Source of the DNA: a virus
Virus record (IMG/VR): IMGVR_UViG_3300025168_000604
Location: 1-25,366 of that record
Length of the DNA: 25,366 bases
Strand: one strand, 5' to 3'
Part shown: piece after piece, positions 19,262 to 24,948 of the stretch
Layout: every line of letters starts with the position of its first letter
Position numbering within the stretch: position 1 is the first letter of the stretch
Position numbers and translations under genes: made by a program
The notes under the pieces: generated by a model
The model's input: only the letters and a program-made list of their open reading frames with translations
Told to the model about the DNA's origin: nothing
Database searches by the model: none

Positions 19262-19471
19262 TTACTTACCTCTTGCTTTTTCACATGTAGGGCAGAAATT
19301 TATTGGGTTGTCTTTATATTTTTTCTCGTATCGGCTTAGTTTTATTCCACACATAGCACATTTGTATTTTGGTTGGTCTGGCTTTTTTTCCTGACCGCCT
19401 CTTTCTTGTGAAGCACGATAGCGTTTCCATCTTTCCGATTTATCATCAACCTTAACTATATCTTTCCACAT
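19262..19471 (-). CDS. Small zinc-ribbon protein with N-terminal WxDIxK motif
   Basis: The protein is 69 residues from MWKDIVKVDDKSE, with AAAGGAT about 8 bases upstream; an in-frame ATG at 19480 adds three residues. The N-terminus W-K-D-I-V-K fits the tag seen in other proteins here. A basic Gln/Lys-rich linker follows. The C-terminal 35 residues form a zinc ribbon: KCAMCGIKLS and FCPTCEKARGK, i.e. CxxC...CxxC. It could bind nucleic acid or serve as a small structural or regulatory factor. It is part of the portal-to-scaffold group. Function unknown, but the zinc ribbon itself is clear. Confidence -1.
   Translation of the reverse strand: MWKDIVKVDDKSERWKRYRASQERGGQEKKPDQPKYKCAMCGIKLSRYEKKYKDNPINFCPTCEKARGK
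19448..19471 (-). other. N-terminal WxDIxK tag, MWKDIVKV
   Basis: The first eight codons of the zinc-ribbon gene encode MWKDIVKV, matching W-x-[DST]-I-x-K. Confidence -1.
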
Positions 19472-19476
19472 GAGAA

Positions 19477-19833
19477 TCAATCCTTTTTCTTTCGGCCATA
19501 TACTAAATCAGATAACTGGCGATACAATAATTCGTATTCTTTACGAAGTTTGGTAGCCGTAGCCACAATATCAATGTTGCGCTCATCCATTGATTTCATC
19601 TTCTTGTTGAGTTTCTTATCGGACTTAGTTAAATCTAATTCTTTCAAGGTGTCTATTAATTCACCTAACTTAGTGAAGTCTTGACCAAAAAATTCGGTTG
19701 GTGAAGCGGCTTGAATAGTCTTTTTGAGTTTCTTTTTACCTTTAGCATCTAAAGAATCTAAAATGTCTTTAGGGCTTTCCTTTTCTTCTTTGAGAATAAA
19801 CTCTTCTCCATCTCCATAAAAATCCCATGTCAT
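19477..19833 (-). CDS. Charged helical protein, 118 residues
   Basis: The protein starts MTWDFYGDGEEF at an ATG overlapping the stop of the 676-residue gene (ATGA arrangement), with GAGGTGA upstream. It is lysine- and glutamate-rich and mostly helical (KKLKKTIQAAS, FTKLGELIDTLKELDL, then ATKLRKEYELLYRQLSDLVY). There are no cysteines and no membrane part. The first three residues MTW match the start of two other tagged proteins, but the rest of the tag (D-I-L-K) is not present, so I do not count it as a full copy. Family unknown; an assembly or core role is possible from the context. Confidence -1.
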   Translation of the reverse strand: MTWDFYGDGEEFILKEEKESPKDILDSLDAKGKKKLKKTIQAASPTEFFGQDFTKLGELIDTLKELDLTKSDKKLNKKMKSMDERNIDIVATATKLRKEYELLYRQLSDLVYGRKKKD

Positions 19834-24140: not shown

Positions 24141-24299
24141 CTAATAAGGTTTAGCCCAATTTGCCGCTTGGTCTATCTTACAAGTAAAACAACGCTCTGC
24201 TATCCTTCCTGTCTTAGCGCACTTCCTACAAACTGTTCTGTATCTAATAGAATCAGGAAGTTTATTTCTAACCTTATGTTTAAATTTTGCGTAACTCAT
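24141..24299 (-). CDS. 52-residue zinc-ribbon protein
   Basis: A short frame from ATG at 24299 to TAG at 24141, starting in an ATGA overlap with the preceding gene's stop, so probably translated by coupling. The product begins MSYAKFKHKVRNKLPDSIRY. It has the four cysteines of a compact zinc site: C24-x2-C27 (CRKC) and C37-x2-C40 (CFTC), then a short tail ending AKPY. Basic residues dominate the first 23 positions, suggesting nucleic-acid or protein contact. It fills what would otherwise be a ~200-base gap before the portal. No specific family is assigned. Confidence -1.
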   Translation of the reverse strand: MSYAKFKHKVRNKLPDSIRYRTVCRKCAKTGRIAERCFTCKIDQAANWAKPY

Positions 24300-24697
24300 G
24301 TGTAATTCAACTCGTCGTCTTCAGGGAAATGATGTTGAGTATAACCATAAATAATATTACTATCCACCATTTTTTTCCAAAATGGTTTGCTTTCATCTAT
24401 CACAGTTACGGCCCAAACAGGATAATTTTTACTAGCCTTCATGTCCTTAACAAACTCCTGTAAGTAGGGTTGGCCTTTACCCTTTCCTCTATCTAGCACT
24501 TCAAAAACAGTAATTAACCATTCATCTCCATACTCAAAGGCATAACCTCTTGCTTCTTCATCTTCTGATTCCCAAACAATTCCTGCGGAATTTTTCATTT
24601 GGCTGGCCATATTACCGGCTAAAGAATATCTAGTATCGGACCCTTTAGGTATTTCTTTTTCCGATAGTATCGGTTTTTTAAGAATACTAAACCACAT
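24296..24697 (-). CDS. GNAT-like acetyltransferase candidate with N-terminal WxSIxK motif
   Basis: The protein is 133 residues, starting MWFSILKKPIL at an ATG overlapping the preceding stop (TAATG). The N-terminus W-F-S-I-L-K matches the tag in neighbouring proteins. Residues ~50-115 have the order of a GNAT fold: strands GYAFEYGDEWLITVFEVL, then R-G-K-G-K-G-Q at the position of the acetyl-CoA loop, helix YLQEFVKDMKAS, strand PVWAVTVIDES and KPFWKKMVDS in place of the usual N-x-x-A-x-x-F-Y-x-K segment. The acetyl-CoA loop is Q/R-x-x-G-x-G/A in the family, which this approximates. Substrate unknown. It is short for a GNAT (usually ~150-180 residues), so it may be reduced or inactive. Confidence -1.
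   Translation of the reverse strand: MWFSILKKPILSEKEIPKGSDTRYSLAGNMASQMKNSAGIVWESEDEEARGYAFEYGDEWLITVFEVLDRGKGKGQPYLQEFVKDMKASKNYPVWAVTVIDESKPFWKKMVDSNIIYGYTQHHFPEDDELNYT
24674..24697 (-). other. N-terminal WxSIxK tag, MWFSILKK
   Basis: The first eight codons of the GNAT-like gene encode MWFSILKK, matching W-x-[DST]-I-x-K. Confidence -1.
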
Positions 24698-24948
24698 TAC
24701 AAATCTTCGCCTATTTTTCTAAAAGCCCTTCTAATGTCCCTGACTACTAAATCATACCTACCACTTGAGGAAGGAGTGCTAGAAACAACCACTAATCGGG
24801 TACTGTCTGTTCTAGGATTTAAGACTGTTAATTTCATATGCCTTCCCTGACTACCCCCTACTATTTGAACAGGTATTTTATTTTCAACATATTTTTTAAT
24901 CTTCTTCAATTCTCTTCTAGTTGCTTTTAGTATATCTTGCCAAGTCAT
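24697..24948 (-). CDS. Small protein with HicA-like pattern and N-terminal WxDIxK motif
   Basis: The protein is 83 residues, starting MTWQDILKATRREL behind GAGGTGATTAT. The N-terminus W-Q-D-I-L-K is the clearest copy of the tag. After a basic helix (LKKIKKYVENK) come strands with GGSQGRHMKLTVLNP, then RLVVVSSTPSSSG, and a helix VVRDIRRAFRKIGEDL. The sequence of a GS-x-x-x-H strand pair and a final D-I-R-x-x-x-x-x-x-G helix recalls the small double-stranded-RNA-binding-like fold of HicA toxins. The classic G-S-H triplet is not exact (GSQGRH), so RNA cleavage cannot be asserted. No HicB-like partner is adjacent. The function may be RNA or DNA binding. Confidence -1.
   Translation of the reverse strand: MTWQDILKATRRELKKIKKYVENKIPVQIVGGSQGRHMKLTVLNPRTDSTRLVVVSSTPSSSGRYDLVVRDIRRAFRKIGEDL
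24922..24948 (-). other. N-terminal WxDIxK tag, MTWQDILKA
   Basis: The first nine codons of the HicA-like gene encode MTWQDILKA, matching W-x-[DST]-I-x-K. Confidence -1.

Follow-up and report, generated by a model that had tools for sequence, protein, structure and literature searches.

Why do small proteins with different bodies, encoded close together among the head genes of one virus, begin with the same few residues? The question is raised by a 25.4-kb fragment of a tailed virus (an IMG/VR record; hereafter the window, 25,366 nucleotides in all), in which four small proteins start with a tryptophan-containing peptide and two further proteins end in a similar one. Most genes of marine archaeal viruses have had no role assigned to them so far, and peptides that target proteins to the capsid were previously known from few phages (T4 and P1). 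An earlier note on this DNA had proposed that the shared termini load proteins into the procapsid. Here, we ask how common the peptide is in related viruses, what kinds of protein carry it, how it relates to the end of the scaffold protein, and which explanation accounts best for its distribution.

Results

The minus strand of the window encodes the portal, an S78 protease-scaffold, the major capsid protein, the tail tube and the tape measure. The genes that bear on the question are the following:

24697–24948, minus strand: 83-residue protein; N-terminal tag MTWQDILK, tag codons 24925–24948, ATG at 24948
24296–24697, minus strand: 133-residue GNAT-like protein; N-terminal tag MWFSILK, tag codons 24677–24697
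22456–24135, minus strand: portal protein (context)
22104–22454, minus strand: 116-residue protein, directly after the portal gene; N-terminal tag MTWKTILK, tag codons 22431–22454
19477–19833, minus strand: 118-residue DUF5677-like protein; starts MTWDFY.. in the window, standard tag in other lineages
19262–19471, minus strand: 69-residue probable zinc-ribbon protein; N-terminal tag MWKDIVK, tag codons 19451–19471
19009–19284, minus strand: 91-residue coil protein; scaffold-type C-terminal tail MDWSDIHKMVDKVGGQ, tail codons 19012–19059
14571–15803, minus strand: S78 prohead protease fused to a scaffold-like coil; C-terminal tail MDWSDIHKMVGGY, tail codons 14574–14612
13211–14569, minus strand: major capsid protein (context; candidate docking partner)

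All six motifs reported in the earlier note, four N-terminal and two C-terminal, are present where it had placed them, and the starts of the tagged genes are backed by an SD-like GAGGTGA (gene starting at 24948) or by adjoining stop codons. The labels that it had given to the protein bodies fared unevenly. The GNAT-like label stands by way of a tagged relative in G034 with a Pfam GNAT match; the zinc-ribbon label is weak (Pfam E about 0.005, below the cut-off), and the 69-residue protein, which has tagged relatives in L003, L004 and L077, is still a probable zinc ribbon. Neither Pfam nor PHROGs confirmed the HicA-like label of the 83-residue protein. Its family is tagged on the late strand in two virus types (G010/L043), whereas the relative encoded on the early strand in G034 lacks a tag. 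The 116-residue protein has no Pfam match.

Two other genes of the window are worth recording. A small GTPase-like protein (10788–11456; Pfam MMR_HSR1, E = 1.4e-4) is encoded midway through the virion gene cluster and is kept in relatives such as G014, G028 and G048. An untagged 975-residue protein with an ATP-dependent DNA ligase domain (15834–18761) lies between the portal and protease genes, in the head module and not among the replication genes.

Virus group

The named portals closest to that of the window are from haloviruses, at about 28% identity, and the nearest family is Druskaviridae. A search of viral contigs with the major capsid protein found 559 relatives, of which 80 were kept as the related loci used for motif counts; 12 near-full-length related genomes were fetched for whole-genome counts. 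Most of the related records used are 88–97 kb long, with replication and virion genes on opposed strands. A clamp loader, a UvrD-type helicase and a PD-(D/E)XK nuclease are encoded on the replication strand, and a terminase is also in the gene set. Magroviruses of Poseidoniales archaea have been described as halovirus-related tailed viruses with genomes of 90–110 kb and opposed replication and virion modules (PMC12999244). Because the genome lengths, opposed strands and replication genes match this description, we assign the window, as judged from sequences alone, to a putative magrovirus-like tailed virus. Genome size, opposed modules and halovirus kinship, held against the same description, each agree with membership of the order Magrovirales, to which these viruses would then belong; their marine hosts are probably archaea and would be Poseidoniales.

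A short peptide on many unrelated bodies

The consensus of the N-terminal tag is M(x)0-3-W-x-[D/N/E]-I-[L/I]-K. A regular-expression search of the 80 related loci gave 140 ATG-started matches; these fall in many different proteins, and nearly all lie on the coding strand. In the predicted proteins of these loci, a looser form of the motif occurred 424 times, compared with 63 in residue-shuffled proteins; the excess was larger when a methionine was required no more than four residues upstream (264 versus 7.5) and at C-termini (about 132 versus 5.4), all of these being counts that include homologous repeats. The terminal motif thus exceeds its background in related genomes, where the earlier note would have taken a lack of excess as refutation.

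The tagged proteins fall into 131 body clusters between which no similarity is detectable outside the tag. When 129 of them are aligned, the W is conserved in all and the K in 90% or more (consensus MxWxxILK). W, I, L and K have a high information content, which falls to 0.7 bits and then to about 0.3 bits beyond the K, and the logo has no conserved residues after K. The claim that unrelated bodies carry a common terminal tag is therefore established, and the tag has one trait of the T4 signals, a short N-terminal peptide common to non-homologous proteins (131 clusters). The spacing between M and W varies, and codon usage within the tag largely follows that of the genomes; the 131 families have 95 distinct 12-mers. 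Since synonymous codons vary within the tag, selection acts on the peptide. The tag also occurs at the C-terminus, in one family of 360–479 residues and in another of about 170–210 residues.

Among the tagged bodies are a GNAT-like protein, a PAP2-type protein and small proteins common to other phages; most have no assigned function, and homology gives none of them a role as an internal protein. The pelagiphage HTVC033P encodes four small basic, untagged proteins related to tagged proteins of the magrovirus-like viruses. In the clearest pair, HTVC033P MAKSKSTVNKAGNYTKPGMRKR.. matches tagged MTWEEILKKKKKKSTVNQSGNYTKPGMRKR.. at 78% identity from just after the tag, and in some of the other pairs the alignment begins further inside the protein. 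One tagged protein, of 994 residues, had been considered as a DNA ligase; this was rejected, as it has no Pfam match and the ligase of the window is untagged. No homology was found between the tagged proteins of 994 and 631 residues and a 676-residue protein of the window.

Position of tagged genes

Tagged genes were counted across the 12 genomes with genes on the early strand as a control for background. Our gene calls come from a simple procedure of our own, and the counts are approximate. The loose N-terminal tag was found on 197 of 883 late-strand genes versus 16 of 874 early-strand genes (Fisher P = 3e-45), and shuffled proteins gave a mean of 5.1 in about 1,750 genes. The early-strand matches mostly belong to a few conserved families without the ILK core. 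The strict tag (start, 0–3 residues, then W..[IVL][ILV][KR]) is carried by 186 of 648 genes in the head region, taken as −35 to +5 kb relative to the capsid gene, by none of the 874 early genes, by 1 of 185 tail genes and by none of 50 genes elsewhere. Each genome has 7 to 23 strictly tagged genes. Within the late operon, they occupy the half with the head and packaging genes, where they lie at the beginning of the operon, around the terminase gene, before the portal gene, in the interval between portal and capsid genes, and just after the capsid gene.

The scaffold tail

Scaffold proteins, including protease-scaffold fusions, have C-terminal ends that bind the capsid protein. Nearly every protease-scaffold examined ends in M-[DS]-W-x-[DE]-[IL] and a few further residues, and so does a coil protein of about 80 residues. 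Tryptophan is the sole invariant residue in the last 30 of 65 protease-scaffold sequences. In a structure model of the protease-scaffold (pLDDT about 64–91 at the helices, poor elsewhere), a long helix at 304–385 is followed by two predicted short helices, the second of which contains the tail motif. By analogy, this tail would be the capsid-binding end. As in known scaffold systems, the protease-scaffold and the small coil protein share a short motif, on a predicted short helix after a long coil. Those systems, however, are not known to include cargo proteins with a related peptide, whereas the magrovirus-like viruses have putative cargo of this kind, with capsid binding by the tail likewise putative.

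The earlier note had treated the N-terminal and C-terminal copies as one motif. They do share a W-x-acid-[ILV] core, and in close relatives the scaffold tail reads WSDIHK, which fits the cargo motif. In divergent clades, however, scaffold tails such as WSEIDEL, WADLNRL and WDDVHSL have lost the K and can replace I by L or V, while the cargo tags of the same clades are still W..ILK. Tag and tail thus do not vary jointly across clades, and we reject a single motif in favour of two separable classes, an N-terminal W-x-[DN]-I-[LI]-K and a scaffold tail M-[DS]-W-x-[DE]-[IL]-x-x-[MLA]. Because they do not covary, their binding sites may be the same or different. At other loci, a fusion of protease-scaffold and capsid protein, modelled with TGA read as a residue, gave a pLDDT of 36.8, too low to speak for or against docking.

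Occurrence in other viruses and in the literature

The tag is absent from the head regions read in halovirus HVTV-1 and in Methanomassiliicoccales virus vir335, which have related portals, and we therefore reject the view that related viruses generally carry it. In 2.9 million viral contigs, the DNA pattern ATGWSNTGGAARGAYATHYTNAAR had only 108 matches. A magrovirus portal was present in 37 of 50 matching records tested; of the other 13, seven carry multiple tags, as incomplete or related genomes, and the remainder resemble chance matches. Matches to the pattern thus come almost only from magrovirus-like records, and a wide distribution in other viruses is rejected. In the one genome-contig scan for host background, every hit was a virus contig binned in a MAG labelled Maricaulis. 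Two contigs of this Maricaulis sp. (IN14) MAG, L270 and L271, encode the protease-scaffold of this virus and appear to be viral contaminants of the bin. We found no published description of the motif in the part of the magrovirus literature covered.

Discussion

Our results support a model in which the N-terminal motif is a modular procapsid-targeting tag for cargo in magrovirus-like archaeal tailed viruses, one that would dock the cargo for enclosure and probable delivery; we consider this model probable, with appreciable room for doubt. Capsid targeting is the best-supported reading of the tag and is favoured because the tags are restricted to the head half of the late operon, because the bodies are modular, because the scaffold has a related tail, and because T4 and P1 provide precedents. 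Loading, delivery and removal by the protease are putative steps. We infer docking and delivery from the position of the tagged genes, the absence of the tag from early and tail genes, the turnover of the bodies, the scaffold tail and the same two precedents.

In this model, about 7–23 different and mostly small tagged proteins would be made late in infection, a few of them tagged at the C-terminus. Each protein would be docked inside the assembling head by its short tag peptide, with Trp and Ile forming the contact face, most likely on the inner face of the major capsid protein, or else on the scaffold core itself; the W-x-[DE]-[IL] tail of the protease-scaffold may bind the same inner capsid face. 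The cargo would stay enclosed as DNA is packaged and would probably be delivered to the next host cell. The prohead protease might remove the tag. Four observations count against capsid targeting: tail and tag do not covary, the tag has no significant similarity to that of T4, related haloviruses assemble without it, and most of the bodies have no assigned function.

The alternative that survives best, though we regard it as unlikely, is that tagged proteins are assembly helpers or substrates recruited by the tag to the prohead protease, portal or terminase complex; they would act only while the head is being built and would not reach the host. It would explain why tagged genes lie around the terminase, portal and protease genes and why the protease-scaffold itself has a related tail. 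However, 7–23 rapidly changing bodies per genome, among them GNAT-like and PAP2-type proteins and small proteins common to other phages, exceed what assembly should need, and close relatives lack most of the tagged bodies.

We give still less credence to a host-directed peptide, such as a membrane anchor, a host-factor binding element or a stability signal, that would act in the infected cell and not in the virion. A short helix containing Trp could bind a membrane or a host protein, and late genes also act in the cell. The early-strand proteins are nonetheless the first to act on the host, and none of the 874 has the strict tag; tail genes of the same operon are also almost free of it (1/185), the tag occurs at C-termini as well, and the scaffold has a related tail.

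That the common start is a by-product of duplicated or recombined start regions (a DNA cassette), or of chance, is very improbable and was rejected on the shuffles, the strand control and the codon variation: paralogs do stand in tandem in some genomes (one family, for instance, has 11 members across 3 genomes) and a small number of upstream sequences occur more than once (CAGGAGAGATTACA), but tag codons vary much as in the genomes at large, the spacing from M to W is variable, C-termini are tagged too, and 131 clusters lack downstream similarity where shuffling predicts 5 matches in about 1,750 genes.

Returning to capsid targeting, the closest precedent is found in T4, where the first 10 residues of internal proteins suffice for head entry and residues 4 and 7 are most important (PMC9026906). 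As with T4 IPI, IPII and IPIII, an N-terminal peptide is common to otherwise different and variable proteins of a tailed virus, and both tags have residues in the order aromatic, polar, acidic, hydrophobic. Sequence similarity to the T4 tag is not significant, as 8–21% of background N-termini score as high in a 5-position test. The present system also differs from that of T4 in that many more families are tagged, C-termini are used, and the tag is related to the scaffold tail, with targeting and cleavage putative here. In P1, an N-terminal signal of DarB sends the protein, and a reporter, into the virus head (PMC9024508); the N-terminal placement is alike, and the targeting function here would be its counterpart. 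The study of P1 gives no consensus for the Dar proteins (PMC9024508), whereas here one strict consensus extends over more than 100 families. We class the tag as a probable capsid-targeting peptide that is unusual in its scale, its strict consensus and its use of both termini.

A further comparison comes from outside viruses. Encapsulin cargo-loading peptides are short terminal peptides on diverse cargo that dock inside an HK97-fold shell. Here, the shell belongs to a virus instead of a cellular compartment, the motif is different, and the docking site is putative.

A broader implication, to which we give slightly less than even odds, is that abundant uncultured archaeal viruses of the ocean have a general protein-delivery system, in which each virus would carry about 7–23 interchangeable effector-like proteins, from well over 100 families across the sampled genomes, addressed by a seven-residue zip code that can stand at either terminus and imitates the capsid-binding tail of the scaffold. 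The tag sorts a large share of late genes of unknown function as probable virion cargo from their sequence alone, and the tagged set provides candidate host-takeover or anti-defence proteins for archaea beyond culture. If delivery is true, the tag would be a readout of the injected proteome of uncultured viruses. It may also represent a new means of loading proteins into virus shells, and a strict, countable consensus on well over 100 families within one virus group would allow tests of how such a tag originates, spreads and docks.

Three further observations concern the tagged proteins and their relatives. Small Lys-rich families are common to pelagiphages, cyanophages and magroviruses (L345 in HTVC033P, L342 in S-CRM01 and L343 in S-TIP28); in S-CRM01, one of them forms the C-terminal part of a 516-residue protein encoded next to the terminase gene. 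It is possible that these families are general basic proteins of the virion interior. Tandem arrays of tagged paralogs of about 200–230 residues occur in G014 (oriented positions 30813–34757; L084, L085) and in G003 (L120); the paralogs have a conserved N-terminal part (..TQSRVKEIEDIDIDI..) and differing C-terminal parts, and in this they are like a diversifying set of effectors. Finally, about ten short bodies between which no similarity is detectable, encoded a short way upstream of the capsid gene, carry a second N-terminal tag, MTWDYY[DN]IKK (L292–L299, L308, L335 and L007), and the related start MTWDFY.. is found on the 118-residue DUF5677-like family in 64 sequences, among them the protein at 19477–19833 of the window.
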